DNA of 64,000 bases from Sphingobacteriia bacterium (GTDB lineage Bacteria; Bacteroidota; Bacteroidia; Chitinophagales; Chitinophagaceae). The translations under genes were made by a program, and so were the position numbers. The stretch lies in contig JAECQP010000002.1 of assembly GCA_015999745.1 (NCBI GenBank), positions 1 to 64,000 on the forward strand, given 5' to 3'. The notes under the pieces are model-generated. The model saw only the letters and a program-made list of their open reading frames with translations. It did no database searches and was not told where the DNA came from. Of the stretch, positions 4,943-63,949 are shown in pieces (the stretch's first letter is position 1; each line of letters starts with the position of its first letter).

Positions 4943-5950
4943 ATGCCAACATTTTGCTATAATCGCCCCCTTTTGCTGGAGAACGGTAAGGAATTGCCCG
5001 GTCTGGAAATTGCTTACCAAACTTACGGTACCCTGAATGAAGCGAAGAACAATGTAATATGGATCTGTCATGCCTTAACAGCAAACGCTGAAGTGACCGA
5101 CTGGTGGAAGGGCCTGGTGGGCGAACATTGTTTAATTGACCCCAATAAATATTTTATCGTTTGCGCCAATATCATCGGCTCCTGTTACGGTTCTACCGGC
5201 CCCGCCAATGTGAACCCGATTACCGGTAAAGTGTATTATTCCGATTTTCCGCAGGTAACCATCCGCGATATGGTGGCCGCGCATATTTTATTGAGAAAGC
5301 AGCTCGGGATTGATGCTATTTATCTGCTGATGGGAGGCAGCATGGGCGGTTACCAGGTGCTGGAATGGGCCGTGATGGAACCTGCTGTGATTCAGAAAAT
5401 GTTCCTGATAGCCACTTCTCCTTCGGAAAGCGCCTGGGGCGTAGCTGTGCATACTGCGCAGCGCCTGGCCATTGAAGCCGACCAGAGTTGGAAAGATCAT
5501 ACCTCAACGGCAGGCGCCAGGGGACTGAAAGCTGCCAGGGCCATTGGCATGCTTACCTATCGCAACTATACCACGTTCCAGGAAAAACAAACCGATCCCG
5601 ATCCGGAAAAGATCGACAATTTCAAAGCTTCTTCTTACCTGAACTACCAGGGAGATAAACTGGTGAAGCGGTTCAACGCCTACAGTTACTGGCTGCTCAC
5701 CAAGGCTATGGACAGCCATCACCTGGGCCGCGGCCGTGGCGGGAACCTGATAGAAGTATTAAAAACCATTCAGCAGCCTGCTTTCATCATTGGCATCAAC
5801 AGTGATATTCTTTGCCCGCTCGATGAACAACAGTTCATGGCCGATCATATGCCCAATGCGGAACTCTATGCCATCGATTCTACTTACGGGCACGATGGAT
5901 TTATTATTGAAACACAACAGATCACAGCACTGCTGAAAGACTGGATCTGA
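4943..5950 (+). CDS. metX: homoserine O-acyltransferase (MetX)
   Basis: Alpha/beta-hydrolase enzyme that activates homoserine for methionine synthesis. I set the start at the ATG at 4943 (MPTFCYNRPLLLENG), where family similarity begins; the track start at 4766 lies inside the opposite-strand OsmC gene. The product has 335 residues. The nucleophile elbow is GGSMGGYQVLEW, the acid Asp is in NSDILCPLDEQ and the His is in YGHDGFIIE. Early substrate-site motifs such as YQTYG and CHALTANA are present. The DNA just upstream holds TTATTTTG, a near match to the Bacteroidota -7 element. It pairs functionally with metZ. Confidence 0.94.
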   Translation: MPTFCYNRPLLLENGKELPGLEIAYQTYGTLNEAKNNVIWICHALTANAEVTDWWKGLVGEHCLIDPNKYFIVCANIIGSCYGSTGPANVNPITGKVYYSDFPQVTIRDMVAAHILLRKQLGIDAIYLLMGGSMGGYQVLEWAVMEPAVIQKMFLIATSPSESAWGVAVHTAQRLAIEADQSWKDHTSTAGARGLKAARAIGMLTYRNYTTFQEKQTDPDPEKIDNFKASSYLNYQGDKLVKRFNAYSYWLLTKAMDSHHLGRGRGGNLIEVLKTIQQPAFIIGINSDILCPLDEQQFMADHMPNAELYAIDSTYGHDGFIIETQQITALLKDWI

Positions 5951-6000
5951 TGACGATCCAATTGCTGTACACTTGCTATCTTTAATGAAAATTGACCGAT

Positions 6001-6177
6001 ATGGGTATCTGGAAACAAATAGGAGAGTATCTCTATCTCAAAAAAAAGGATCCAAACGAAAAGCCAACTCAATGGATGAAGTACATGCATGGAATGAACC
6101 GGGTTTCCCTGTTCATGTTCCTGGCAGCCCTGCTGTACATCATCTTCAAGCAGGTGATCCTTCCCTTGTTTAAGTAA
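6001..6177 (+). CDS. small single-TM protein, DUF6728-like
   Basis: A 58-residue protein starting at the ATG at 6001; the listed 5992 start is a TTG. It has a basic amphipathic N-terminus (WKQIGEYLYLKKKDPNE), a conserved-looking MKYMHGMNRVSLFMF stretch, and one membrane segment to the C-terminus. Small proteins with KKDPN...FMHxxNR followed by one TM helix are widespread in Bacteroidota and I recognise them as DUF6728-type, from memory. Function is unknown. It lies 50 bases after metX on the same strand and ends 10 bases before the convergent lpxB stop. Confidence 0.65.
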   Translation: MGIWKQIGEYLYLKKKDPNEKPTQWMKYMHGMNRVSLFMFLAALLYIIFKQVILPLFK

Positions 6178-6187
6178 GGCCGGCCTG

Positions 6188-7339
6188 TTAACTTTCCGCA
6201 ATGAATGAGCGCCTGAGGTAAGTCAGTATTTTTTCAGCTGCCTGCTCTGAAGCATTTCCACCGGCAGTCAATACTTCCTTCAACTGCCTGTAATCCTTTT
6301 GCAGCACAGCTTTGGCCTCTTCATTCAACAGTAGCTCATTCAATGCGGCTACCAGGTTGCTGGTGTTCAGTTCATCCTGTATCAGTTCCTTTACTACCAG
6401 CTTGTCCATGATCAGGTTCACCAGCGATATATATTTGATCTTAATCAGCCTTTTGGCAATCTGGTAACTAATGGCGCTTCCCTTGTAACAAACTACTTCC
6501 GGTACACCAAACAAGGCAGTTTCCAGGGTGGCTGTGCCACTGGTTACCAGTGCGGCTCTTGCTTTCAGCAGCAATGCATAGGTGCTGTTTTTTACAACGG
6601 ATACATTGGGATGGCCTTCCAGGAAGGGCGCGTAAAATGCATCTTCCTGCCCCGGCGCTTTGGCCACTACAAAACGATAATCCCGGAACTGATCGGCCAC
6701 GGTTAACATAATGGGCAGCTTCTTGGCAATCTCCTGCTTGCGGCTGCCTGGCAGCAGTGCAATGATATTGGCGCTGTTCAGATCTATATTGCCCGAAGGA
6801 TCGCTCAGCGGCTCCTGGGGCTGTTGGCTGAACCGGTCAATCACTTCAATCAGGGGATGCCCCACATAGTCCACTTCCCAGTTCCAGGTATTTTTATAAT
6901 AATCTTTTTCAAAAGGCAGAATGCAGAGCATGAGGTCGATGCAGGTCTTCATCTTCTTTACCCTGTTGGCTTTCCAGGCCCATACCTGCGGAGAAATATA
7001 ATAGATCACGGAGATGCCTTGTTGTTTGGCCCATTCGGCAATCCGGAGGTTAAAGCCCGGATAGTCGATCAGGATCAGGGCATCGGGACGGAACTGAAGG
7101 ATATCTTCCTTGCACCATTTCAGGTTCCCCAGGATGGTGGGCAGGTTTTTCACCACTTCTGCAAACCCCATGAATGCCAGGTTGCGGTAATGTTTTACCA
7201 GCTCTCCGCCGGCCTGCTGCATCAGGTCGCCTCCCCAGCAGCGGATCCTGGCTGCTGTATCCTTTAGCTGCAACTGTTTAATCAGGTTGCTGCCGTGAAG
7301 ATCTCCGCTGGCTTCTCCTGCTATGATGTAATACTTCAT
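6188..7339 (-). CDS. lpxB: lipid-A-disaccharide synthase
   Basis: GT19 glycosyltransferase joining UDP-2,3-diacylglucosamine and lipid X on the inner face of the inner membrane during lipid A synthesis. The 383-residue product opens with MKYYIIAGEASGDLHG, the family signature, and has the expected YISPQVWAWK, LPGSRKQEI and VTSGTATLE blocks. The start is unambiguous. The -7-like element CAAATTA (reverse TAATTTG) ends only seven bases before the ATG, so the mRNA could be leaderless. In related genomes lpxB usually neighbours surE; here the BlaI/BlaR pair lies between. Confidence 0.96.
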   Translation of the reverse strand: MKYYIIAGEASGDLHGSNLIKQLQLKDTAARIRCWGGDLMQQAGGELVKHYRNLAFMGFAEVVKNLPTILGNLKWCKEDILQFRPDALILIDYPGFNLRIAEWAKQQGISVIYYISPQVWAWKANRVKKMKTCIDLMLCILPFEKDYYKNTWNWEVDYVGHPLIEVIDRFSQQPQEPLSDPSGNIDLNSANIIALLPGSRKQEIAKKLPIMLTVADQFRDYRFVVAKAPGQEDAFYAPFLEGHPNVSVVKNSTYALLLKARAALVTSGTATLETALFGVPEVVCYKGSAISYQIAKRLIKIKYISLVNLIMDKLVVKELIQDELNTSNLVAALNELLLNEEAKAVLQKDYRQLKEVLTAGGNASEQAAEKILTYLRRSFIAES

Positions 7340-7346
7340 ATACCTG

Positions 7347-7353
7347 CAAATTA
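7347..7353 (-). promoter_or_regulatory. lpxB promoter -7-like element abutting the start codon
   Basis: On the minus strand the sequence reads TAATTTGC, close to the Bacteroidota TAnnTTTG element with a one-base shorter spacer. Its G lies seven bases before the lpxB ATG, leaving almost no leader. Confidence 0.4.
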
Positions 7354-7412
7354 CGAATGTTCGGGGATTGAACAGGGGGTTGATCAGGAGGCCGGATCCT
7401 GAAAATTTCCTT

Positions 7413-7452
7413 AAAACTAAAAAAATAGTTTTAAAACTAAAAAATTAGTTAT
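7413..7452. promoter_or_regulatory. two abutting BlaI/MecI-type operators
   Basis: Two 20-base dyads lie head to tail. The first is perfect: AAAACTA, six A, TAGTTTT (7413-7432). The second, AAAACTA-N6-TAGTTAT (7433-7452), is nearly perfect. They sit in the divergent region between lpxB and the blaI-like gene, 43 bases before its ATG. BlaI/MecI repressors bind ACTA/TAGT dyads as dimers, so autorepression of the blaI-blaR pair is the likely role. The binding itself is inference. Confidence 0.75.
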
Positions 7453-7494
7453 AGATTTATCCTGCAATTGCAAATACCCAATTAACCCGATAGT

Positions 7495-7857
7495 ATGAAA
7501 CAATTAACCAAGGCGGAAGAACAGATCATGCAGAGTATCTGGAACCTGGAGCATGCCTTCCTGAAAGACATCATTGAAGCGCAGCCCGAACCCAGGCCCC
7601 ACAACAACACCATTGCCACTATTGTGAAAATATTGGTGGACAAGGGTTTTGTAGGGGTGAAACAAATCGGAAGAGTGCATCAGTATTATCCGGTTGTTTC
7701 CAAGGAAAAATATTCTTCCAATACCATCCGCAACCTGGTGGAGGGCTATTTTGAAGGGTCCTTTGCCGATGCGGTTTCCTTTATGGTAAAACAGAAAGAC
7801 ATCAGCGTTAAGGAACTGGAAATGCTGTTGCAGGAAATTAAAAAAGCTAAAAAATAA
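7495..7857 (+). CDS. BlaI/MecI/CopY-family winged-helix repressor
   Basis: A 120-residue transcriptional repressor. The N-terminal winged helix matches the family (LTKAEEQIMQSIWNLE, then NNTIATIVKILVDKGFV and a wing GRVHQYYPVVSKEKY); the C-terminal 35 residues form the dimerisation helices where cognate proteases cleave or displace the protein. The gene ends four bases before the M56 membrane peptidase, the standard repressor-sensor arrangement. The two dyads upstream are its expected operators. In Bacteroidota such pairs often have no beta-lactam link, so the inducer is unknown. Confidence 0.92.
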   Translation: MKQLTKAEEQIMQSIWNLEHAFLKDIIEAQPEPRPHNNTIATIVKILVDKGFVGVKQIGRVHQYYPVVSKEKYSSNTIRNLVEGYFEGSFADAVSFMVKQKDISVKELEMLLQEIKKAKK

Positions 7858-7861
7858 ATCT

Positions 7862-9805
7862 ATGCTTACCACACTCTATTATTTTTTGCAGGTAGTGTTA
7901 TGCAGTGGAATCATGATGGGTTACTACTGGCTGGTATTGCGCAACAAGCGCTTCCATCAGTACAACCGCTTTTATATACTGGCCATTGCCGCGTTGGCCT
8001 GGATTGTTCCGTTGATCAAGATTCAATGGAATAATCCGGGGAACAATGACCTGCAACTGGTCCGTTTCTTCTCCGTTATTGCCGATAACAATTCGGAAAT
8101 TGAATCCGGCCTTACCGGAAACAGTGTTTATATGAACTGGCAGGGCGCTCTGGTAGCGCTGTACGCCCTGGTAGCATTAGCCCTCCTGATCAGTATGATC
8201 CGGGCAATCTTCCGCATCTATCAGTTGCTGAAAACCCATTCCTGCAAAACGGTCGGAGACGTGTACCTGGTACTCACCAGGGCCGAAGGCGCCCCCTTCT
8301 CGTTCTTCCGGTATATTTTCTGGCACGAATCCATCGACCTGAAGAGTGATGCCGGAAAGCAAATGATGCAGCACGAACTAACCCATGTCCGGCAGAAACA
8401 CAGCATCGATAAAATGGCGATGCAACTGGTGCTCATTGCCGGATGGTTCAATCCCTTCTTTTGGCTGATGAAGAAAGAAATGGAAATGATCCATGAATTC
8501 ATTGCCGATCACAAAGCAGTGGCCAGGGGCGATGCGGCTTCCCTGGCGCAGATGTTGCTCGCTGCCAGCTATCCGCAGCAGCAACACTTATTAACCAATC
8601 CTTTTTTCTTTTCACCCATCAAACGAAGACTTCAAATGATCTCGAACCAGCATCATCCTAAATTCAGCTACCTGCGTCGCCTGGTGGTATTGCCGCTGCT
8701 GGCCGTGGTAGTAGTATTTTTTTCCTTCAGGAATAAAAATGCCGAAAGCGCCGGCTCCATTTCCGTAGCGGCCGTTCTGCAGGAAGTGTATAGGGAAGTC
8801 CCTGCTGCCATGCAACCTGCCAGACTAACCAATCGTCCGGCCAGGGATACCATTATCCTCAACTCCGACTCTGTTTACCGCCTACCCAAAGGAGAACCGG
8901 TGAAACTGGTTCAGGAAAACGGGAAAATGGCCACGGTGGTGATAGATGGGAATGGTTTACAACCGAAGGAGCGCAAAGACGGCAGCGCTTTGCTGAGTTC
9001 CTTCCCCGAAGGAAAGAAGCCGGTTATTTTACTGGATGGAGATAGGGTAACAGAAACAGAACTGTCTGTTATTTCGCCCGATGATATTGCTACCATTAAT
9101 GTAATGAAAGGCGGATCTGCCAGGGAGCTCTTCAAAGAGGATATTGCTGAAAATGGGGTGGTCATGATTACGACTAAAAAAGCCGCTTCCGGGGAACTTA
9201 AAGTGAAAATCCGCAACGAACATGAACCCGTGAAAAAACTCAATGAAAAAGTACTGGTGGTGCTGGACGGTGTTGTTCAGGATAAAACCATCGGAGAGTT
9301 AAACATTCTTCCTGAAAAAATAGCTTCGGTTTCTGTGTTGAAAGGAGCATTGGCTAAACAGTCTTATGGCGAGCGTGCAAAGGGCGGGGCCATACTGATT
9401 AAAACCAAAGAAGGACCTGTTACCGTAAGGGAGTATGAAGGGTCGCCTGAAAAGATCAGGGCTGCTACACAAATGGGTTACAAAATAATTAAGGAACCCG
9501 AAGAACCGGCTCATTTTCCGGGAGGGAAAGAAACCTGGTCCAAATACCTCTACAGAAACCTGAACAAAGAACTGCCCGGGAAAGCCGGAGCTCCTCCGGG
9601 AAATTATACCGTTCAGCTTTCTTTTTTGGTAGCTCCAAACGGACTCATTAGTAATTTAATAGCAGAAAATAATCCGGGTTTTGGAACTGCTGAAGAAGCC
9701 GTTCGTGTGATCAGGTATGGTCCCAAATGGGTTCCTGCCAAAGAGGGAGGGAAAGCGGTTCTATCACAGGTTAAACAAACGATCCGTTTTGTTGTAAAAG
9801 AATAA
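7862..9805 (+). CDS. BlaR1-type M56 membrane metallopeptidase with TonB-receptor plug-like repeats and TonB-C-like end
   Basis: The 647-residue protein has membrane helices near residues 3-25, 35-54, 92-112 and about 276-294. The zinc motif H171-E-L-T-H175 with a downstream ExxADxxA segment (EFIADHKAV) marks it as an M56 peptidase facing the cytoplasm. The periplasmic C-terminal part holds two repeats resembling the TonB-dependent receptor plug: one with LDGDRVTE...IATINVMKGGSA...GVVMITTKK, the other with LDGVVQD...IASVSVLKGALAKQSYG...GAILIKTK. The end (NYTVQLSFLVAPNGLISN) resembles a TonB C-terminal domain. It is predicted to sense an envelope signal and inactivate the adjacent BlaI. Ligand unknown. 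Confidence 0.88.
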   Translation: MLTTLYYFLQVVLCSGIMMGYYWLVLRNKRFHQYNRFYILAIAALAWIVPLIKIQWNNPGNNDLQLVRFFSVIADNNSEIESGLTGNSVYMNWQGALVALYALVALALLISMIRAIFRIYQLLKTHSCKTVGDVYLVLTRAEGAPFSFFRYIFWHESIDLKSDAGKQMMQHELTHVRQKHSIDKMAMQLVLIAGWFNPFFWLMKKEMEMIHEFIADHKAVARGDAASLAQMLLAASYPQQQHLLTNPFFFSPIKRRLQMISNQHHPKFSYLRRLVVLPLLAVVVVFFSFRNKNAESAGSISVAAVLQEVYREVPAAMQPARLTNRPARDTIILNSDSVYRLPKGEPVKLVQENGKMATVVIDGNGLQPKERKDGSALLSSFPEGKKPVILLDGDRVTETELSVISPDDIATINVMKGGSARELFKEDIAENGVVMITTKKAASGELKVKIRNEHEPVKKLNEKVLVVLDGVVQDKTIGELNILPEKIASVSVLKGALAKQSYGERAKGGAILIKTKEGPVTVREYEGSPEKIRAATQMGYKIIKEPEEPAHFPGGKETWSKYLYRNLNKELPGKAGAPPGNYTVQLSFLVAPNGLISNLIAENNPGFGTAEEAVRVIRYGPKWVPAKEGGKAVLSQVKQTIRFVVKE

Positions 9806-53440: not shown

Positions 53441-54055
53441 GTGATCGACTATACTACATATGATGATACGGCGCTGATGCGCGTGATTGCCCTGGAAGAG
53501 GCGGATAGCCAGGCATTTACCATCTTCTATAACCGGCATTTGGCAAGGGTTTACAAGAAAATGCTGGTGTTCCTGAAAAGTTCGGATGAAGCAGAGGAAG
53601 CGGTACAGGAAGTATTTATACGGATCTGGAAAAGAAAGGAATTCTTACATGAGGTACATAATATAGAGGCATATTTCAATACAGTCTGCCGCAACCTGGT
53701 ATACGACCGGTTCCGCAAAGCCAGGAACGATAAACACCTTCTCGAAAAACTAAAAGCAGCGGCAAGTGAACATCCGGAACAGGCGCCCGGTGCAGATGCA
53801 CAGCTACTGGTGAAACAACAATGGGAACTCCTGCAGAGGGCCCTGGATACATTGCCCCCGCAAAGACGTAAAGTATTTGAACTATGTAAAGTGCAGGGTT
53901 TGTCCTATGACGAAGTATGTGCCGAACTTGGTATCACCCTGCCCACAGCCAAAGAACATGTGATGAGGGCAAAGCGCGATATCCGTGATTACCTCAATGG
54001 GCAGGGAGAGCTGGCAGTAAGCCTGCTGATCCTGCTGGATATGATCCACGAATAG
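53441..54055 (+). CDS. ECF sigma-70 family RNA polymerase sigma factor
   Basis: A 204-residue ECF sigma factor. Region 2: ADSQAFTIFYNRHLARVYKKMLVFLKSSDEAEEAVQEVFIRIWK; region 4: LDTLPPQRRKVFELCKVQGLSYDEVCAELGITLPTAKEHVMRAKRDI. The start is GTG, since no in-frame ATG exists before the domain. It is followed 95 bases later by a FecR anti-sigma gene and then susC, the normal cell-surface signalling order in Bacteroidota. A short hydrophobic C-terminal tail (AVSLLILLDMI) is extra. It is expected to activate the fecR-susC-susD run. Confidence 0.94.
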   Translation: MIDYTTYDDTALMRVIALEEADSQAFTIFYNRHLARVYKKMLVFLKSSDEAEEAVQEVFIRIWKRKEFLHEVHNIEAYFNTVCRNLVYDRFRKARNDKHLLEKLKAAASEHPEQAPGADAQLLVKQQWELLQRALDTLPPQRRKVFELCKVQGLSYDEVCAELGITLPTAKEHVMRAKRDIRDYLNGQGELAVSLLILLDMIHE

Positions 54056-54150: not shown

Positions 54151-55350
54151 TTGGAACCCCGCTACACACCTGAAGAGTTTACTGTACTGCTGCAACGCTA
54201 TATCGAAAATCGTTACAGCAGGGAAGATGTGGACCTGCTTACCCAACTGATCGATGAGCCGGCCTATCATGGGCTAGCCATGGAGCTGATTGAGGGAACG
54301 CTGCACAAAATAAAGGTGGAGGAGGGAGAAATTGCACCTGATGTACTGGAACGCCTGCGCAATAAACTTCCCGGGATCCTTGGTGAAGAACAAGCTGCCC
54401 AAACATCAGCCCGGCCAAGTGTTTCGGTGTTGCGCCGGATGCGCTGGGCTGCAGCGGCGGCTATCCTTTTGGTTGCGGGCACGGCAGCTTATTTCTTGCT
54501 GCAGCCCAAACAGCCTGCCGGTAGTACAGCACAACCCATTGCGGATGTGAAGGCCCCGGAGAAGAACCGGGCCATGATTACCCTTGAAAATGGAAAAACC
54601 ATTTACCTGGATAGTGTGGGCAACGGACAACTGGCTGCGATGGGAGCAGTGAAATTGGTGAAACTGGCCAATGGCCAGATCCGTTATTCCGGAAAGGCAT
54701 CAGACATTGCTTATCATACGCTCACAAATCCACGCGGCAGCCAGCCGATCGATATGACGTTAAGCGATGGAAGCAGGGTATGGCTAAACGCAGGTTCTTC
54801 TATTACTTATCCCATTGCTTTTGTAGCAGGACAACACAGAAAAGTAAACATGACCGGCGAAGCCTATTTTGAAGTGGCGCATGATGCGGCCAATCCTTTT
54901 TATGTATCACGCGGAGGAATGGAAGTTAAAGTACTGGGTACCCATTTTAACGTGAACGCCTACGATAATGAAGGCGCCTATAAAGTGACGCTGCTGGAGG
55001 GCGTTGTAGCAGTGAAGAAAGCAACAGGTCAACTACTGTTGAAACCAGGACAGCAGGCGCAGGTAAATCAAACTGTTACATTGGAAACCGCGGTTGATCT
55101 GGAACAGGTAATGGCCTGGAAAAACGGCGCCACTTATTTCACCAATGCAGACCTGGGTGTGGTACTGCGGGAACTGGAACGATGGTACGATATCAAAGCA
55201 GAAGTGAAGGGAACATTGGGTAGTAAGCGTTTTTACCTGGATGCACCCAGGAGCGCTTCCCTGCAGGATGTGTTGAAGTCGATACTGGAAGACAATCAAC
55301 TGCGCTATGCGTATGATGCAAACAACAGAACACTAACGGTTCATCCGTAA
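54151..55350 (+). CDS. FecR-family anti-sigma transmembrane regulator
   Basis: A 399-residue protein with N-terminal cytoplasmic region (YTPEEFTVLLQRYIENRYSREDVDLLTQL), one TM helix near residues 96-116, the FecR domain (LSDGSRVWLNAGSSITYP, GEAYFEVAHDAANPFYV, VLGTHFNVNAY) and the C-terminal DUF4974 domain (VVLRELERWYDIKAEV ... LRYAYDANNRTLTVHP). Starts at TTG; the next Met is at residue 39 inside the first helix bundle, so TTG is preferred. It relays the SusC STN signal to the ECF sigma. Confidence 0.92.
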   Translation: MEPRYTPEEFTVLLQRYIENRYSREDVDLLTQLIDEPAYHGLAMELIEGTLHKIKVEEGEIAPDVLERLRNKLPGILGEEQAAQTSARPSVSVLRRMRWAAAAAILLVAGTAAYFLLQPKQPAGSTAQPIADVKAPEKNRAMITLENGKTIYLDSVGNGQLAAMGAVKLVKLANGQIRYSGKASDIAYHTLTNPRGSQPIDMTLSDGSRVWLNAGSSITYPIAFVAGQHRKVNMTGEAYFEVAHDAANPFYVSRGGMEVKVLGTHFNVNAYDNEGAYKVTLLEGVVAVKKATGQLLLKPGQQAQVNQTVTLETAVDLEQVMAWKNGATYFTNADLGVVLRELERWYDIKAEVKGTLGSKRFYLDAPRSASLQDVLKSILEDNQLRYAYDANNRTLTVHP

Positions 55351-55475: not shown

Positions 55476-58400
55476 ATGCAAAGTATGCATTCAACTGCTT
55501 TTGGCCATCAAATTAATTTTGGGCCATTCACCCAAATGCTGCGCATCATGAAAATGTCAGCTTTATTAGTCCTGCTTGTATTGCAGGCTGCCGCCCACCC
55601 CAATGCTATCGCCCAGGTAACCCTGAAGGAGAAGGCTGCTCCATTGGAGAAGGTACTGAAGGCGATTAAGAAACAATCTGCCTATGGACTGGTTTTTGAT
55701 GAAACCCTGGTACGGGCCAAGGGAAGGCCCGTGTCCATAGAGGTATCTGACCGGCCGGTGGAAGAAGTGCTGGCACAGATATTCAGAGGTCAGGACCAGC
55801 TTACCTATACGCTCAATGGAAGAATCATCAGCGTTAAAGAGAGGTCCGTGGGAAAGTTGCCCGCGGCAACAAAGGCCGCGGAAGCCAATGAACCTCCGCA
55901 GCCAATTACAGTGAGGGGTAGGGTGGTGAATGAAAAGGGGGAGGCTGCTGTTGGGGTTGCTGTAATGATTAAAGGAACAACCAGAGGAACCAGCACGAAT
56001 GAGCGCGGAGAATTTTCGCTGAGCGGGGTGCCGGAGAATGCAATGCTTGTGTTCAGTAGTGTGAACCTGGAGCGATTTGAAATGAAAGTGACTGCAGATA
56101 AAGCAGCGGACCTATCGATCACGCTTAAAGCCAAGATCAGTGAACTGGCAGATATTACCATATCCTCTGTAAATACAGGCTATCAGACCATTTCAAAGGA
56201 ACGTGTCAATGGAAGTTATTATGCTATGGATAGCACTGCATTCAACCGCCGTGTAAGCACTGATGTGATATCCCGTTTAGAGGGTATGGTTCCGGGATTG
56301 CTGTTCAATCGGAATGTTTCCGGAACGGGCCTGAATCTGAGTATCAGGGGACATAGTACCATTCTTGCCAATGATCAGCCATTGATTGTTGTAGACAATT
56401 TCCCATACGATGGAAGTATTGATAATATCAACCCGAATGATGTTGAGAGCATTACGGTACTCAAAGATGCATCTGCGGCATCTATCTGGGGTGCAAAATC
56501 CGGCAATGGAGTGATCGTAATCACTACCAAGAAGGGCAGGCGTTACCAACCACTGATCATGGAATTAAACAGCAATGTTACTATTGGAAGCAAGCCTGAT
56601 CTTTTTTATAGCCCTAAATTTATTGCGTCGAGCGATTTTATTAATGTTGAGAAAACCCTTTTTGGCATGGGGTATTATGATGCAAACCTGGCGAATTCGG
56701 GTAAACCTGCGGTTTCCCCAGTTGTTAAAATACTTGCCAGGCAACGTGCGGGGCAGATTACCACTGATCAGGCGAATCAGCAAATTGATGCACTTCGCCA
56801 AAATGACATTAGAAATGATCTAAACAAGTATTTATTACAAAAATCAGTTAGTCAGCGATACTCGCTTAATATCAGAGGTGGTGGTCTGTCAAGTGATTAT
56901 TTCCTTTCTTTTGGCTTTGATAATAATCGAAGCAGTAATGTCGCCAATTCTAACAAACGTGTAACAATCACAGGAATCAGTAATTTTTATCCCACAAAGA
57001 ATCTTACGCTTTCTGCTGCTGTATATTATGTGCAGTCAAATAACCTTGCAAATGATGTGAGTATAAATAGTATCAACCCACTTAACAGGCCAGTTACCTA
57101 TCCCTATGCTCAATTAGTGGATGCCGGTGGCAGGCCAGTAAATATTGACAAGGATTTCAGTTCCTTTTATACAGATACCGTTGGTACGGGAAAGTTGATG
57201 AGTTGGAGGTATTCTCCATTGGAGGAAATAGCGCAGAACTATGATAAAACCAATTTAATTGATAATCGTATTAATCTGGCAGTTAGGTACAATTTCCTAA
57301 ATGGATTCGGTGTTGAAGGAAAATTCCAATACCAAAAAAGTTCCAGTAGCAATAAGGATTATTCCGGAGATTCCAGTTATGCCGTAAGGTATTTATACAA
57401 TCGCTATACTAACTTAAGTACCGGCGCACATCCTGTACCAGCAGGTGGAATCTTAGGACTCTCGAATCGGAATCTTGTTTCTTACCGTTCGCGCTTTCAA
57501 TTGAACTATAACCATACTTGGGCAATGCATTCAGTAAACTTACTTGCAGGGGCGGAGATTAACTCTACAACTGCTGAATCTTCAAATAATACCTTATATG
57601 GTTATAACGAAGACCTGGGAACCTTTCAATATATTGATCTTGTTACTGTTTTTCCGACCATTCCAACCGGAAGTAATAGAGTCCCATTTTCCAGCGGAAT
57701 CTCCCAGACAAATGACAGATTCTTGTCTTACTACTCGAACGCTTCTTATTTGATAAATGGTAAATATTCTCTCACAGCCAGCGCGCGAATAGACAAATCC
57801 AACCTTTTTGGTGTGAATACCAATCAGAAGGCGATTCCCCTTTATTCCATTGGGGCAGGGTGGGAATTCAGCAAGGAAAAATGGTTGAACCTTGCCTGGT
57901 TGGATGCAGGTAAACTCCGCGTTACTTATGGCTACAACGGCAATATCAACAAAAGCGTTGCTGCTATCACAACTTTTACTTCATTAGCCAGCTCAACTTT
58001 AAACCGTATTCCTTATGCCACTCTTTCTAATCCTGGCAATCCGGAATTAAGATGGGAGCGAATTTCCATGGTCAACTTCGGGATGGATTTTAGCGTCCTA
58101 AAGAACCGCATTACCGGCAGCATTGAATATTATCGGAAAAAGGGCACGGACTTGTTTGGACAGGCGCCATTGCCAGGATCATCCGGACTGACCAGCCTTA
58201 CAGGTAATTTTGCGAATACCAAAGGATACGGCGTTGATATCTTGATCAGGTCTGTTAACGTGCGATCAAAGAATATTCTTTGGACTACGGATTTTATTTT
58301 TAGCAAGGCAAAGGATGTCGTTACGAAGTATGGAGTTAAAGCAGCGGTGAGCAACTATTTATTGCAGGGAGATAATAATGGTACAGGTGCCAATATTCCC

Positions 58401-59045
58401 CTGGAAGGGAAACCTCTTTTTGCCATTTACAGCTACCCCTTTGCAGGACTTGATAACAATGGAGACCCCCTTGGATATTACAACGGTAAGCCAAGTAATA
58501 ATTGGGCTGGTATTATAGGAAATACTACTACGGATAGTATGCTGTTCCACGGTAGCTCAAGGCCAACAGTATTCGGATCGCTCAGAAATACTATTTCCTA
58601 TAAGGGATTTACATTATCATTCAACCTGCTCTATAAGTTTGGATACTATTTTCGTCGTTCAACTTTGGGTGCAGCCTCGTTATTTGGCAGTTGGATAGGA
58701 CATGAAGATTATTATAGCAGATGGCAAAAACCGGGTGACGAAAATTATACAGATGTTCCTGCCTTACAGTACCCTCCGATAAATAACAACCGTGGAACCT
58801 TCTATTCAAATTCCTCTGCATTGGTTGAAAAGGGAGATCATATCCGGTTGCAGGATATCAATCTGAGTTATCAGTTCAACAATAAGGTTTTAAAGTCAAT
58901 AGGCTTAAATGACCTGCAGGTGTATAGCTATCTAAATAATATTGGACTGGTATGGCGTGCCAACAAAAGTCATCTTGATCCAGACATATACGGCGATTAT
59001 CGAATACCGCTTTCCATCGCATTCGGAATTAAAGCAACCTTTTAA
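55476..59045 (+). CDS. SusC/RagA-family TonB-dependent receptor with STN domain
   Basis: A 1189-residue outer-membrane receptor. After an extended N-terminus with a hydrophobic signal (MKMSALLVLLVLQAAA) come an STN signalling domain (about 55-125), a CarboxypepD_reg-like domain (about 145-222: VRGRVVNEKGEAAVGVAV), the plug (about 240-355, with LIVVDNFPYDGSIDNINPNDVESITVLKDASAASIWG and GVIVITTKKGR) and the beta-barrel ending in aromatic F. The STN domain implies surface signalling through FecR. GC content falls just after the plug, near base 56,560. The ATG at 55476 fits long SusC leaders in this group. Substrate unknown. Confidence 0.93.
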   Translation: MQSMHSTAFGHQINFGPFTQMLRIMKMSALLVLLVLQAAAHPNAIAQVTLKEKAAPLEKVLKAIKKQSAYGLVFDETLVRAKGRPVSIEVSDRPVEEVLAQIFRGQDQLTYTLNGRIISVKERSVGKLPAATKAAEANEPPQPITVRGRVVNEKGEAAVGVAVMIKGTTRGTSTNERGEFSLSGVPENAMLVFSSVNLERFEMKVTADKAADLSITLKAKISELADITISSVNTGYQTISKERVNGSYYAMDSTAFNRRVSTDVISRLEGMVPGLLFNRNVSGTGLNLSIRGHSTILANDQPLIVVDNFPYDGSIDNINPNDVESITVLKDASAASIWGAKSGNGVIVITTKKGRRYQPLIMELNSNVTIGSKPDLFYSPKFIASSDFINVEKTLFGMGYYDANLANSGKPAVSPVVKILARQRAGQITTDQANQQIDALRQNDIRNDLNKYLLQKSVSQRYSLNIRGGGLSSDYFLSFGFDNNRSSNVANSNKRVTITGISNFYPTKNLTLSAAVYYVQSNNLANDVSINSINPLNRPVTYPYAQLVDAGGRPVNIDKDFSSFYTDTVGTGKLMSWRYSPLEEIAQNYDKTNLIDNRINLAVRYNFLNGFGVEGKFQYQKSSSSNKDYSGDSSYAVRYLYNRYTNLSTGAHPVPAGGILGLSNRNLVSYRSRFQLNYNHTWAMHSVNLLAGAEINSTTAESSNNTLYGYNEDLGTFQYIDLVTVFPTIPTGSNRVPFSSGISQTNDRFLSYYSNASYLINGKYSLTASARIDKSNLFGVNTNQKAIPLYSIGAGWEFSKEKWLNLAWLDAGKLRVTYGYNGNINKSVAAITTFTSLASSTLNRIPYATLSNPGNPELRWERISMVNFGMDFSVLKNRITGSIEYYRKKGTDLFGQAPLPGSSGLTSLTGNFANTKGYGVDILIRSVNVRSKNILWTTDFIFSKAKDVVTKYGVKAAVSNYLLQGDNNGTGANIPLEGKPLFAIYSYPFAGLDNNGDPLGYYNGKPSNNWAGIIGNTTTDSMLFHGSSRPTVFGSLRNTISYKGFTLSFNLLYKFGYYFRRSTLGAASLFGSWIGHEDYYSRWQKPGDENYTDVPALQYPPINNNRGTFYSNSSALVEKGDHIRLQDINLSYQFNNKVLKSIGLNDLQVYSYLNNIGLVWRANKSHLDPDIYGDYRIPLSIAFGIKATF

Positions 59046-59056
59046 AAACGGAAATC

Positions 59057-60448
59057 ATGAAAAAATCAGTATATTTTTATTTGCTTCTATTTTCATCTGG
59101 AATGTTAAGTTCTTGTAAAAAAGAAGATGCATTCCTGGATGTAAAACCAAACATATCATTGGTTGTTCCTTCCAATCTGGATGACTATCAGAAGCTTTTA
59201 TACAATGAAGGGGTTTTTAATACAGCCGTTGATCCAGCAATGGGTTCAATTACATCAGAGGAATATTATGTGACACCCGCTTTTTGGGCGGGCCGTCCGA
59301 TTCTTGACCGCAACCTTTATGTTTTTGGTAGTGGTTACGTTTATGAGTCGTGGCCATTGTTTACCGATTGGGAGCTTCCATATAAACAGGTTTATTATGC
59401 CAATATTGTCCTAGACAGGATAGATAAACTTGAAATTACCAATGATTACCAAACTCAATATAAAACCGTAAAAGGGCAGGCTTTATTCTTTCGTGCTCGC
59501 GCATTTTACAACTTAGTTCAAACCTTTGCCATGCCGTTTGATTCCACCAATTTTTCCACTGGGTTGGGCATACCTTTGCGACTAACATCTGATTTTAATG
59601 TTGTTATACAGCGATCTACGATCCAGCAGACTTATGATAGAATTTTGGCGGATCTGACGGCAGCAGTAGAATTTCTTCCCGTTTCAACAGCCTATCCAAC
59701 CCAGCCATCAAGAACGGCTGCCAATGCGCTTCTAGCCAGAATTTATTTGGCTATGCGGAATTATGTGAAGGCGTTGCAATACTCAGATGCTACCTTATCA
59801 TTTAAAAGCGATCTTATAGATTACAATGCACTGAGTCCTACAAATACCAATCTGTCGACCACTTATTTAAAAGAAGATATTTTCCAAGCCTCTTTGTTGT
59901 CAGGTATATTCACATTTAGTGGCTCTACAACGGTAGATACAAATTTATTGAAGCTTTATGATGATCCAAATGATCTTAGACGGACTGTTTGTTACAGAAC
60001 TAATGGGAGTAATGTTGAGTTTAGGGGTACTTATGGATTGGGCACTGGTTCAAAATATAGTGGCCTTGCTACTGATGAAATGTATTTGATTCGTGCAGAA
60101 TGCCTTGCCAGGCAGGGAAATGTGAGTGGGGCTATGACTGATGTAAACACGTTGCTGCGCACCCGATGGAAGAAGAATGGAACTTTTAGTACTTATGTTG
60201 ATAAGACGGCCCCCTCTGCAGCAGTCGCTCTCAATCTTATCCTGAAAGAAAGGAGAAAAGAGCTTCCATTCAGGGGCTTGCGGTGGACAGATATACGAAG
60301 ACTGAACCTTGAGCCAGGCTTTCAAACTACTTTAGCAAGAGTACTAAATGGCGTAACCTATATTTTGCCTCCTGGTGATCCAAGATTTGCAATGCCTATT
60401 CCACTCACTGAAATACAATTGTCAGGTATTCAGCAAAATGATAGATAA
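59057..60448 (+). CDS. SusD/RagB-family surface lipoprotein
   Basis: A 463-residue outer-membrane lipoprotein starting 11 bases after susC. Lipobox region GMLSSCKKEDAF; then the SusD fold: YDRILADLTAAVEFLP, RTAANALLARIYLAMRNYVKALQYSD (TPR-like) and YLIRAECLARQGNVSGAMTDVNTLLRTRW, then ERRKELPFRGLRWTDIRRL. It caps the SusC barrel. It is slightly shorter than many SusD proteins. Low-GC codon use matches the distal susC. Ligand not identified. Confidence 0.9.
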   Translation: MKKSVYFYLLLFSSGMLSSCKKEDAFLDVKPNISLVVPSNLDDYQKLLYNEGVFNTAVDPAMGSITSEEYYVTPAFWAGRPILDRNLYVFGSGYVYESWPLFTDWELPYKQVYYANIVLDRIDKLEITNDYQTQYKTVKGQALFFRARAFYNLVQTFAMPFDSTNFSTGLGIPLRLTSDFNVVIQRSTIQQTYDRILADLTAAVEFLPVSTAYPTQPSRTAANALLARIYLAMRNYVKALQYSDATLSFKSDLIDYNALSPTNTNLSTTYLKEDIFQASLLSGIFTFSGSTTVDTNLLKLYDDPNDLRRTVCYRTNGSNVEFRGTYGLGTGSKYSGLATDEMYLIRAECLARQGNVSGAMTDVNTLLRTRWKKNGTFSTYVDKTAPSAAVALNLILKERRKELPFRGLRWTDIRRLNLEPGFQTTLARVLNGVTYILPPGDPRFAMPIPLTEIQLSGIQQNDR

Positions 60449-60503
60449 GTAAGTGACAGATAATTTTTATTCGCTACTACTAAACGTGATAATTCATAAT
60501 AAG

Positions 60504-62036
60504 ATGAAACAGCGATTACTTTTTTTGCTATTTATATATTCAACAACATACTTTGACTTGTATGCACAGGACCGGCCTTCCTTTAAGTGCCAACCAGTGG
60601 TTGTCAAAGGGCATTTTCAAGATTTGAGATTGGGAGATAGTTTACGAATTGGGGGAGCCATATTAGAATATGGCCTTGGAGCCAGTTCCGCTCAGAGGTA
60701 TTTTAGCGTGGGAAGCGAATCTTTTGTATTTAAATTCGACCCGATAAGAGTGCCATCACAGATTCAAATAAGAGTAGATACAATCAGAAATGGGAAAAAC
60801 ATACCATTAATGATATCTGACGTTTTTTTAATCGAGCCGGGAGACACCATTATACTTTCAAAAAATGGCAGAAAAGTAAGCTATTCAGGTACAGACAGGA
60901 AAATATCGCTCCTTCAGGAAGTTGATAAGATTGGAACAATATTAAAGAAAAAGCGATGGCAAAACGTAGAACAAATTCGACCTGTAGAGAACGATTACAA
61001 TTACCTGGATTCCGTTACTATATTACAATTATTATATCTTGAACAAATTAAGGATCAAATTTCAACTACTGCATATTCTTTATCGAAAATAGATATTCTT
61101 TGCAGTAACTTGTCTTTTAAACGCCACATTGAAAGACGGGTTGTTAACAAGGATAATTATCTAAAACTTCGGAATTTCTACAATGTTCAGGATGCCAATT
61201 TTGGAAAGGCAGAATCTATAAGAAAATCTCTTGCCAATTATTATGATAGGATAGCTGAAGAATTAAAAAGTGCAAGAGCCAAGTATTCCTTTTTTTTTCC
61301 ATACAGTAAAGCCTATTCATCACTCATTAAGCTGAATTACGAGAAAGATTCTTGTATTATACCTGATTCCCCTTTTGACCTTAGGAAGTATTATTGCTAT
61401 CTAAAAAATAATTTTGGTGGCTTGCTTCGTGAACGATTACTTGTTGATTTTGTTTTTAGCAATATCTCCACGATTGATGACCGTGGCTTTTTCATAAGGG
61501 ATGCTATGCCATATATTAAAAATCATGATTTTGTAAATTACTTATTAAAAATAAGCACAGGCGTAAAAGGCGATCCAGCGTATAATTTTACTTTACCCGA
61601 TTTGAGTGGAAACAAAGTAAGTATGGAGTCTTTAAAAGGAAAAGTGGTTGTTATGGATTTTTGGGGAACTGGTTGTGGGCCTTGTATTAAGTTGCACCCG
61701 ATATTTGATAAAGTTGTTGATTATTTTTCTGATAATTCTAATATTATATTTCTAAGTGTAAGTTTAGATGAAGACAGTTTAAAGTGGAGAAATAGCGTTA
61801 TGGGAGGAAAATATACATGCACTTCAAAGCCTAATCTTTTGAATATTTATACAGACGGACTCGGGCATAATCATCCCATGATAAAATATCATAATATACG
61901 AGGCATTCCAGCAATGGTATTAGTGAATAGTATAGGAAACATAGAGGAAAATCCAACCGATCCCTGGTCAGAAGATGGGAAGGGCTTGATAAAGAAAATT
62001 GAGTTACTAATTAAAGCAATACCTGAAGCTGATTAG
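60504..62036 (+). CDS. TlpA-like thiol-disulfide oxidoreductase with unusual N-terminal extension
   Basis: A 510-residue exported protein. I start at ATG 60504 (MKQRLLFLLFIYSTTYF) for its signal peptide; the track GTG start overlaps nothing useful. The C-terminal 140 residues are a thioredoxin-fold TlpA/AhpC-TSA domain: FTLPDLSGNKVSMESLKGKVVVMDFWGT, active site C391-G-P-C394, and cis-Pro region GIPAMVLVN. The first about 360 residues contain a beta-rich DUF4369-like part (VVKGHFQDLRLGD ... GDTIILSKNG) and an unassigned helical region. It follows susD by 56 bases. It could reduce or form disulfides in exported proteins such as the DUF6520-like protein opposite. Confidence 0.85.
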   Translation: MKQRLLFLLFIYSTTYFDLYAQDRPSFKCQPVVVKGHFQDLRLGDSLRIGGAILEYGLGASSAQRYFSVGSESFVFKFDPIRVPSQIQIRVDTIRNGKNIPLMISDVFLIEPGDTIILSKNGRKVSYSGTDRKISLLQEVDKIGTILKKKRWQNVEQIRPVENDYNYLDSVTILQLLYLEQIKDQISTTAYSLSKIDILCSNLSFKRHIERRVVNKDNYLKLRNFYNVQDANFGKAESIRKSLANYYDRIAEELKSARAKYSFFFPYSKAYSSLIKLNYEKDSCIIPDSPFDLRKYYCYLKNNFGGLLRERLLVDFVFSNISTIDDRGFFIRDAMPYIKNHDFVNYLLKISTGVKGDPAYNFTLPDLSGNKVSMESLKGKVVVMDFWGTGCGPCIKLHPIFDKVVDYFSDNSNIIFLSVSLDEDSLKWRNSVMGGKYTCTSKPNLLNIYTDGLGHNHPMIKYHNIRGIPAMVLVNSIGNIEENPTDPWSEDGKGLIKKIELLIKAIPEAD

Positions 62037-62124: not shown

Positions 62125-62400
62125 CTAAGGGTAGGCACCCAGTTGCTTTGAGGGTTCAACTACATCCTCGGGGTCCGGTTCATTATTTGGTTCGGGTACG
62201 TCTGCATCATTTTCAATCAGATACGAACAGGGTTGAAGTATGACCGGGTCACAATCGCCAGTAGTAGGTTCTTCTTCAACCCAATGAAATTCTCCATCGC
62301 CATCATCTACACGGAAGATGGATTTTTCAAATTTTGTGTTAAATGCGCTACCGACAGCAAACAACAATGCCAGCAGACACAATAATCTAACCTTTTTCAT
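62125..62400 (-). CDS. small exported DUF6520-like protein with one Cys pair
   Basis: A 91-residue precursor. Signal peptide MKKVRLLCLLALLFAVGSAF, then an acidic mature part with Trp in DGEFHWVEEE and two cysteines C50-x7-C58 (TGDCDPVILQPCSYL). The acidic Pro/Asp tail (PEPNNEPDPEDVVEP) is low in complexity. The MKK...AVGSAFxTK start and single Cys pair followed by an acidic tail match the DUF6520-type small proteins as I recall them. It lies 77 bases downstream of a MauE gene on the same strand. Function unknown. Confidence 0.72.
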   Translation of the reverse strand: MKKVRLLCLLALLFAVGSAFNTKFEKSIFRVDDGDGEFHWVEEEPTTGDCDPVILQPCSYLIENDADVPEPNNEPDPEDVVEPSKQLGAYP

Positions 62401-62477: not shown

Positions 62478-62918
62478 TTAAGCGATGGAAATTTCCGCTT
62501 TATGGTTTGTTTTGTGTTTTTCGAGCCATAGACCGATCATGCTGATAGCGGTAAAGAAAAGGTTGATATAAAAATGATTTTCCCATGTGAGCTTTTCCAT
62601 TATCCCACCGCAAATACATGGTTTTTTTGCTATGATGTTAAAGGCGAACAATGCAGCATATATCGTAAAAGCCACCATTAATGAAAGAGCTACTTTTAAA
62701 GCAGGACGCCTCGTTCTGTCAAAGAATAGTAATCCTGCAATTAATAGTTCAGCAGCAGGTAAAGTAGAGGCAATAAACCAGCCCATCCAATCGGGGAAAG
62801 GTTGTGTTTTCATTGCATCAAAAAAGACAGGGTAATTGATGAACTTGCTAATACTTACGTAGGCAAATAATAGGATGAGCAAGGCGCAGCAAAGTTCCAG
62901 CCAGATTGACTTTTTCAT
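62478..62918 (-). CDS. MauE/DoxX-type redox-associated membrane protein
   Basis: A 146-residue protein with four predicted TM helices (about 5-24, 46-66, 76-97 and 114-131). The loop after the third carries the paired cysteines C101-I-C103-G-G (KKPCICGGIMEKLTW), the MauE family mark. MauE in methylamine operons supports disulfide formation in the small subunit. Here it precedes the DUF6520-like gene and faces the TlpA-like gene, so a thiol-redox relay is suggested. It is not part of a methylamine cluster. Confidence 0.85.
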   Translation of the reverse strand: MKKSIWLELCCALLILLFAYVSISKFINYPVFFDAMKTQPFPDWMGWFIASTLPAAELLIAGLLFFDRTRRPALKVALSLMVAFTIYAALFAFNIIAKKPCICGGIMEKLTWENHFYINLFFTAISMIGLWLEKHKTNHKAEISIA

Positions 62919-63460: not shown

Positions 63461-63949
63461 ATGGCATTACAAGTATTGGCTGTGAGTAGTGATAACCATG
63501 CTGCGTTATGGCAGCTTGAATGTAGTTTAAAGAAAGATGAAATATTTAGCAGGCGAAGCATAGAGATTATGAGTTTTTGCACACTGCGTAATGCTTTACA
63601 TGTGTTCAATTGTTTGCGCCCAGATGTGCTTTTAATAAATGTAAAATGGCTTGAGTTTTCCCGTGTTGAAAGAGTACAAGAGATCATTGTGCAGCTAACG
63701 GAATTGGAACCGGCAGCTAATATTGTGGTTATGACGCCAAACTACTGTTCACATACCCAACAATACATGCAGTTATCCGGTGTTAAGGGTTACGTATATC
63801 TTGATTCTCCATTCTTTACGGAAAGGGAAGTGTGGGAACATTTTGTTGTTTCACTTGAATATGCGGCAAAGGGGGAGTCTTTTTTTTGTTGCCCGTCCTC
63901 GCAGCAGAAATGGCAATTTCAAAGCTGTTTGGCAGATCGGCCAGCGTAG
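63461..63949 (+). CDS. orphan receiver-like regulator, probably frameshifted near the end
   Basis: A 162-residue ORF resembling a response-regulator receiver domain: LQVLAVSSDNHAAL at the start, LRPDVLLINVKW (the usual phospho-Asp may be the Asp in PDVLLI or is replaced), AANIVVMTPNY, and VKGYVYLDSPF. There is no DNA-binding domain. After a T8 run (63880-63887) the annotated frame gives unlikely QQKWQFQSC..., while the frame shifted by one gives PVLAAEMAISKLFG..., a typical linker-like helix, ending at TAA 63967-63969. It may be a pseudogene, a phase-variable gene or a sequencing error. Confidence 0.6.
   Translation: MALQVLAVSSDNHAALWQLECSLKKDEIFSRRSIEIMSFCTLRNALHVFNCLRPDVLLINVKWLEFSRVERVQEIIVQLTELEPAANIVVMTPNYCSHTQQYMQLSGVKGYVYLDSPFFTEREVWEHFVVSLEYAAKGESFFCCPSSQQKWQFQSCLADRPA

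Follow-up and report, generated by a model that had tools for sequence, protein, structure and literature searches.

The SusC/SusD (SusCD) pairs that typify the Bacteroidota are importers and are commonly interpreted as systems of nutrient uptake. The RagAB/SusCD peptide importers resemble the locus described here, which lies near the end of a 64,000-nucleotide stretch of DNA from a Sphingobacteriia bacterium of the Chitinophagaceae (contig JAECQP010000002.1, positions 1 to 64,000; hereafter the window), in their SusC-SusD pair and in the peptidases adjoining it in Flavobacteriia, but each pair here has an exported peptide of its own and usually a MauE gene too. The MauE/MauD maturation of methylamine dehydrogenase in Paracoccus likewise combines MauE, a thioredoxin-fold protein and a small exported disulfide protein, whereas here the putative client is a variable peptide of 70 aa with one loop and the partner is SusCD; no structural genes of methylamine dehydrogenase were found at the window end or among the recurrent neighbour clusters. 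The decRiPPter candidate clusters of Streptomyces hold mauE/mauD, with MauE beside a small putative precursor peptide as in our case, though they belong to another phylum and have no SusCD, and any relationship of the peptides would be putative (PMC7794033). For methanobactin, a layout of the peptide with a FecIR-regulated TonB-dependent transporter was proposed (MbnT-MbnR-MbnI) (PMC3621798), and such a self-made peptide adjoining a transporter under FecR/FecI-type control is close to our module; on the other hand, our module carries a SusD lid and a Sec leader, has no MNIO/MbnC enzymes, and its metal binding is only putative. Bufferins (MNIO-DUF2063-DoxX) also join a small Sec-exported Cys protein to a DoxX-clan membrane protein, but MNIO and DUF2063 are missing from our module. 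Finally, the Pfam family DUF6520 (PF20130) shares with our protein the leader type, length and Cys-pair region, though the window protein and many relatives stay under its cut-off and a second peptide of the same genome is not matched. We found no pertinent report on DUF6520, on NVEALA, on MauE with SusD or on the module in the open literature; most subscription journals were outside the search.

In the window, plus-strand genes for a sigma factor, FecR, SusC, SusD and TlpA converge on the small gene and the MauE gene, both on the minus strand, as follows.

53441 to 54055, plus strand: ECF (FecI-type) sigma factor, score over the Pfam cut-off
54151 to 55350, plus strand: FecR-type anti-sigma/sensor protein, score over the Pfam cut-off
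55476 to 59045, plus strand: SusC/RagA-type TonB-dependent transporter with CarboxypepD_reg (CarboxypepD_reg_2), Plug and a weak N-terminal STN domain
59057 to 60448, plus strand: SusD/RagB-type surface lipoprotein (SusD-like_3 117 bits, SusD_RagB 44 bits)
60453 to 62036, plus strand: TlpA-like protein, convergent with the small gene, with a variable N-terminal domain and a C-terminal thioredoxin fold with CGPC
62125 to 62400, minus strand: DUF6520-like small exported acidic protein, 91 aa, a real ORF with ATG start
62341 to 62400, minus strand: its Sec-type leader MKKVRLLCLLALLFAVGSAF, codons 1-20, with Cys8 inside and F20 invariant among relatives
62227 to 62253, minus strand: its conserved Cys pair C-x7-C, codons 50-58, a predicted disulfide loop
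62478 to 62918, minus strand: MauE-family membrane protein, 146 aa (PF07291), four-helix model with pLDDT 91
62604 to 62618, minus strand: MauE codons 101-105, CICGG, the invariant CxCGG loop, probably on the periplasmic side by the positive-inside rule

MauE scored 84.9 bits against PF07291 (cut-off 27), and the gap between its end and the start of the small gene is 77 bp, so the small gene stands directly behind MauE as the first-pass annotation had stated. The signal peptide of the TlpA-like protein points to a start at 60504, and the STN (signalling) domain match at the SusC N-terminus reached 21.2 bits against a Pfam cut-off of 28.4. Upstream of MauE and divergent from it, a 162-aa ORF at 63461-63949 (plus strand) has a response-regulator-like look with no Pfam match; its place is occupied by AraC or CRP regulators in relatives.

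There are three MauE genes in this genome, namely two short ones and one for a 362-aa BT_3928-like protein. Each short gene is accompanied by a separate small C-x(n)-C protein that faces a SusD, while no peptide was found alongside the 362-aa one. The second set is on another contig.

Contig C32, 1959 to 3305, plus strand: SusD
Contig C32, 3351 to 3668, minus strand: peptide, no Pfam match
Contig C32, 3749 to 4180, minus strand: MauE

This genome has about 17 SusD loci, and such a peptide is present at just 2 of them, exactly those with a short MauE.

The protein of 62125-62400 consists of the leader MKKVRLLCLLALLFAVGSAF, which has a K-rich n-region, a hydrophobic core and the motif VGSAF, and the predicted mature part NTKFEKSIFRVDDGDGEFHWVEEEPTTGDCDPVILQPCSYLIENDADVPEPNNEPDPEDVVEPSKQLGAYP (translation of the minus-strand ORF). 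The mature part comprises 72 aa from residue 20, with a single Trp (W40), a tail rich in D/E/P and a predicted pI of about 4.05, in agreement with the earlier description of a tiny secreted acidic protein with one Trp and an Asp/Glu/Pro tail. The "exact two-cysteine design" of that description applies to the mature form only (C50 and C58), because a third Cys, C8, sits in the leader; among 140 relatives it holds for 88, the remainder having mostly 4-5 Cys. The score for DUF6520 was 19.1-21.0 bits, under the gathering threshold of 25.4, with profile positions 1-67 aligned to residues 1-65, so that the protein is a sub-threshold member, and the NCBIfam search gave chance-level matches only. The AlphaFold model of the peptide is a hairpin of low confidence (pLDDT 63), and because of this poor model a ligand role is without fold support.

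Relatives of the peptide were compared to see what stays constant. Behind MauE, 69 small secreted ORFs were collected without a Cys filter, and 68 of them had the pair C-x(5-9)-C, as did all 28 proteins retrieved with the Pfam DUF6520 model; these numbers imply that the pattern is not due to chance. In all 88 two-Cys proteins the gap between the cysteines was 5-9 residues, and the Cys count was even in 127 of 140 peptides. In an alignment of 26 sequences, 23 of which matched PF20130, the only invariant columns were M1, F20, C50 and C58. Little was conserved beyond leader and cysteines, apart from a residue two places past the second Cys that is hydrophobic or aromatic (Y/I/V). Thus, the alignment proposed by the first-pass annotation gave the expected picture of constant leader and cysteines with a variable rest, and the refuting outcome that it had named, cysteines not kept among homologues, did not appear. 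The constant leader is a Sec signal peptide of the usual kind and not a modification leader, ending in ..SAF or AFA in the relatives.

Several known peptide classes were considered and rejected. Against a RiPP precursor with a modification leader stand the plain Sec signal of the peptide and the presence of LanKC genes at only 9 of 80 MauE loci; for a GG-leader class II bacteriocin, the leader is again of the Sec type and no peptidase-ABC exporter recurs as a neighbour; for the NVEALA family of Bacteroidales, the 26 relatives gave no Pfam match at E <= 0.1; for a bufferin precursor, the peptide has neither a DUF2282 match nor EGKCG repeats; and for methanobactin, the MNIO modification enzyme is missing from the module. 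As a separate observation, the class III lanthionine synthetase-like genes adjoining MauE in those 9 loci, whose enzymes would be cytosolic, are near Sec-leader peptides, upstream of MauE in L069, L073, L077, L080, L093 and L101 and downstream in L081, L097 and L116. The one of L081 has RamC_N, kinase and LanC domains, and some others lack the LanC part and reach a length of only about 430-440 aa.

The short, poorly conserved sequence and the sub-threshold Pfam score would also fit a trivial adjacency, either through conserved synteny or because a non-functional ORF happens to have a signal peptide. It is evident, however, that dN is well below dS in most close pairs of the peptide genes (pairs with computable dS), so the small gene is coding; and the Cys pair is nearly always there, while the linkage is seen across orders and in several copies per genome, against the controls. 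We therefore regard a trivial adjacency as very improbable.

With regard to this linkage, 80 MauE loci were taken from named genomes (Chitinophaga, Niastella, Mucilaginibacter, Pedobacter, Chryseobacterium, Flavobacterium, Dyadobacter, Draconibacterium and Cyclobacteriaceae), of which 79 were usable. A small secreted protein with at least two Cys was encoded within 300 bp downstream of MauE at 68 of the 79 loci, and as a control only 7 of 399 further genes taken from these loci had such a protein downstream. In a phylum-wide sample picked by MauE score, the peptide was behind MauE in 26 of 30 cases of the class Bacteroidia and in 1-2 of 19 cases of other classes, and it was found in none of 11 cases of the BT_3928-type MauE. 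Two whole genera had the peptide at 59 of 60 MauE loci.

The MauE alignment retained an invariant motif CxCGG...W..H...N, in which C101 and C103 of the CxC are the only invariant cysteines. In the structure model, four long helices carry the CxC in one loop, which probably faces the periplasm as judged from the charge distribution. A Foldseek search with this model gave zero matches to solved structures at E below 0.001; therefore a relationship to DsbB/VKOR by fold was rejected, and MauE may be either an oxidase or a reductase. MauE occurs in two forms, stand-alone or with a predicted beta-propeller region, which is fused or encoded by a separate gene. The predicted propeller region of 350 aa has no Pfam family and is found in MauE of Flavobacteriia and some others (L162-L178, L296-L314, L075, L105, L107, L109, L112 and L164), always with four-Cys peptides. 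Neighbours of the propeller-bearing MauE had 4 Cys in 34 of 34 distinct peptides, and those of the stand-alone MauE had 2 Cys in 73 of 89 (p about 2e-19, uncorrected for relatedness; both forms coexist in one genus). Within this Weeksellaceae genus, MauE form and Cys number split 14/14 versus 8/8. Thus, the MauE form predicts the Cys number of the adjoining peptide. In another respect, a similar short C-terminal tail (SRKPV, SRKPVEYS, SRIPV) was noticed on the otherwise divergent MauE of L006, L012, L027 and L236.

These results suggest that MauE probably acts on the Cys pair. They are also what one would see if the peptide were a periplasmic dithiol/disulfide carrier for MauE, that is, a mini-redoxin giving the second Cys pair (cf. 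DsbB, VKOR) and serving SusCD indirectly: MauE has only the CxC as a conserved pair, the Cys number of the peptide matches the MauE form, peptide and MauE adjoin and share one orientation at nearly all MauE loci, and redox genes for TlpA and MauE recur in the module. However, the Cys spacing varies from 5 to 9 with unconserved flanks, unlike redox-active motifs, the peptide has tandem divergent copies at some loci and is kept without MauE at others as described below, and a carrier could do without a SusCD branch dedicated to it, so that we consider a redox carrier rather unlikely. One tandem was seen in L237 around 5845-8500, where six diverged small Cys proteins (123-125 aa) stand behind one MauE and face one SusCD.

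To read the locus from the side of the peptide, 20 loci seeded with DUF6520 were examined with 6-kb flanks, 6 of the 20 having been chosen because MauE was not within 1.5 kb. A convergent (tail-to-tail) SusD-SusC pair was present at all 20 loci, and MauE at only 9, being missing within 6 kb at 11. Because of these 11 loci, SusCD is the more universal partner. To the first-pass annotation the peptide looked like a "dedicated client" of MauE, and it had left the adjoining SusC, SusD, TlpA, FecR and sigma factor genes unlinked to it. Its client part gains from the strong and specific linkage and from the agreement of MauE form with Cys number, but "dedicated" finds no support in that form, and the neighbours that it left unlinked include the most constant partner of the peptide.

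SusD was found far more often downstream (57 of 66 flanks) than upstream (6 of 66). In a quick maximum-likelihood tree of SusDs, one branch (SH-aLRT 100) was made up solely of 31 of the 40 cassette members, and the remaining nine were in a second branch shared with two further SusDs, one of them (L100) from a co-directional version of the module. The window SusD belongs to a SusD branch confined to such modules. Peptide distances correlated with SusD given MauE at 0.200 (permutation p 0.001) and, more weakly, with MauE given SusD at 0.090 (p 0.013). The stronger correlation with SusD persisted when SusD was cut to 140-aa segments. At the loci with TlpA (n=24), the value was 0.330 for SusD given TlpA and 0.106 for TlpA given SusD (p 0.15), and TlpA was rejected as the best co-varying partner because its link was lost once SusD was accounted for. 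As these correlations are weak (partial 0.2-0.3) and relatedness was only roughly controlled, they indicate direction only. In the close pairs, the mature part diverged faster than the leader and MauE, at a pace similar to SusD.

The other partners are less constant. In 8-kb flanks of the 80 MauE loci, FecR was found in 32 and a sigma factor in 26; TlpA was directly adjacent in 29, and an AraC-type regulator was upstream of MauE in 25. At about half of the loci TlpA or a peptidase was between SusD and the peptide; in Flavobacteriia TlpA is replaced by an S9 prolyl oligopeptidase or a zinc protease. No exporter was linked to the peptide gene.

One case bears on how the mature part evolves. Two metagenome-derived genomes, deposited as Sediminibacterium (L098) and Flavihumibacter (L120), were placed in the window's own genus. 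Their loci are 95-100% identical across MauE and the peptide leader, fall to about 60% from about codon 33, and are again 97% identical in SusD, which shows that the mature part behaves as an exchangeable unit in this case. L120 has an extra TlpA (47% identical) beside the peptide, with the counterpart of the L098 TlpA (92%) pushed to second place and a third TlpA behind, and L096 has two of the L120 types. Side by side, L098 (7600-10800), L120 (7600-13500) and L096 show a sharp break of DNA identity within the peptide gene, together with a stack of as many as three divergent TlpA genes that resembles displaced partners in polymorphic toxin-immunity loci.

Such a constant leader with an exchanged mature part (about 97-100% identity around MauE and leader) could mean an antagonistic, bacteriocin-like peptide, for which SusCD is the target or uptake route and the adjoining TlpA protects the producer. 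The divergent TlpA added beside the swapped peptide, the displacement of the old one and the arrays of 2-3 TlpA genes in L061, L096 and L120 point in the same direction, with a pattern like displacement in toxin-immunity loci. Nevertheless, about half of the loci have no TlpA, and TlpA is part of the SusCD operon; its correlation with the peptide is not significant given SusD; there is neither an exporter nor a killing-type domain; close pairs show purifying selection; and the swap is known from one pair of metagenome-derived genomes. We consider an antagonistic role unlikely, slightly more so than the redox carrier.

FecIR systems often respond to metal complexes, and this speaks for a metal or cofactor carrier like methanobactin or bufferin, secreted or periplasmic, whose Cys and acidic residues would bind the metal or cofactor and which SusCD-FecIR would recover. 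The arrangement of a peptide with a FecIR-regulated TonB-dependent transporter is that of methanobactin (PMC3621798), and most of the 140 peptides are acidic with a median pI of 4.9. Some relatives, however, are basic, no ligand residues are conserved besides the Cys pair, and the module has no modification enzyme; the MNIO (MbnB) enzyme was not among the recurrent neighbours of the 80 MauE loci. An MNIO enzyme does lie 2.6 kb past the window end, but it is part of another operon, of the bufferin type, that encodes an EGKCGG precursor of its own. A metal carrier thus appears improbable, the least so favoured of the three roles weighed here. That operon is complete at L129 5337-8810 on the minus strand (contig C36 65337-68810, 1.3-4.8 kb past the window end) and encodes an ECF sigma factor, a small Cys protein (89 aa, possibly an anti-sigma factor), MNIO/DUF692 (321 bits), DUF2063 and DoxX, in addition to the precursor with a signal peptide and EGKCGG repeats (7475-7822).

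Taken together, we are highly confident that [FecI-FecR-SusC-SusD-TlpA] facing [MauE-peptide] is a real functional module. Since the module joins the peptide to MauE and SusC/SusD, the peptide may be made by the cell itself and then sensed or taken back up. Among the roles named by the first-pass annotation (signalling, competition and cofactor carriage), the evidence leans to a ligand or cargo of SusCD, to which we give about an even chance; the linkage, the dedicated SusD branch and the distance correlation point only indirectly to a putative binding to SusD/SusC and uptake. Our best reading, an exported peptide with a disulfide loop that is matured by MauE and serves a SusCD/FecIR system of its own as ligand or cargo, is likewise evenly balanced between right and wrong. 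According to this reading, the leader would be removed in the periplasm after Sec export, the peptide would fold around one short disulfide loop, and the periplasmic CxC of MauE with a thioredoxin-fold partner would set the Cys50-Cys58 disulfide or proofread it. The peptide would get to the outer surface, where its own SusD/SusC pair would bind and import it, and the binding may be relayed to the sigma factor through the SusC STN domain and FecR. Then TlpA, or the prolyl oligopeptidase or zinc protease of relatives, may reduce or cut the peptide, which could be a signal or a carrier. More tentatively, and with less confidence than in the reading above, this could be a widespread unnamed system of Bacteroidia, in which every strain would export a disulfide-looped peptide, mature it by a MauE variant that fits its disulfide number, and sense or re-import it via a dedicated SusCD-FecIR receptor. 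The mature peptide would be swapped together with TlpA, and nutrient importers would be the basis of a peptide-receptor language or of kin competition.

Finally, the module is conserved across the class Bacteroidia, and it provides a concrete context for DUF6520 and for the stand-alone MauE of these bacteria; what is new here for the Pfam family is the module context with MauE and SusC/SusD. The relation of the MauE form to the cysteine number is a sequence rule that any mechanism must account for. If our reading is true, a part of the "nutrient" SusCD systems would be devoted to a peptide of the cell's own making.
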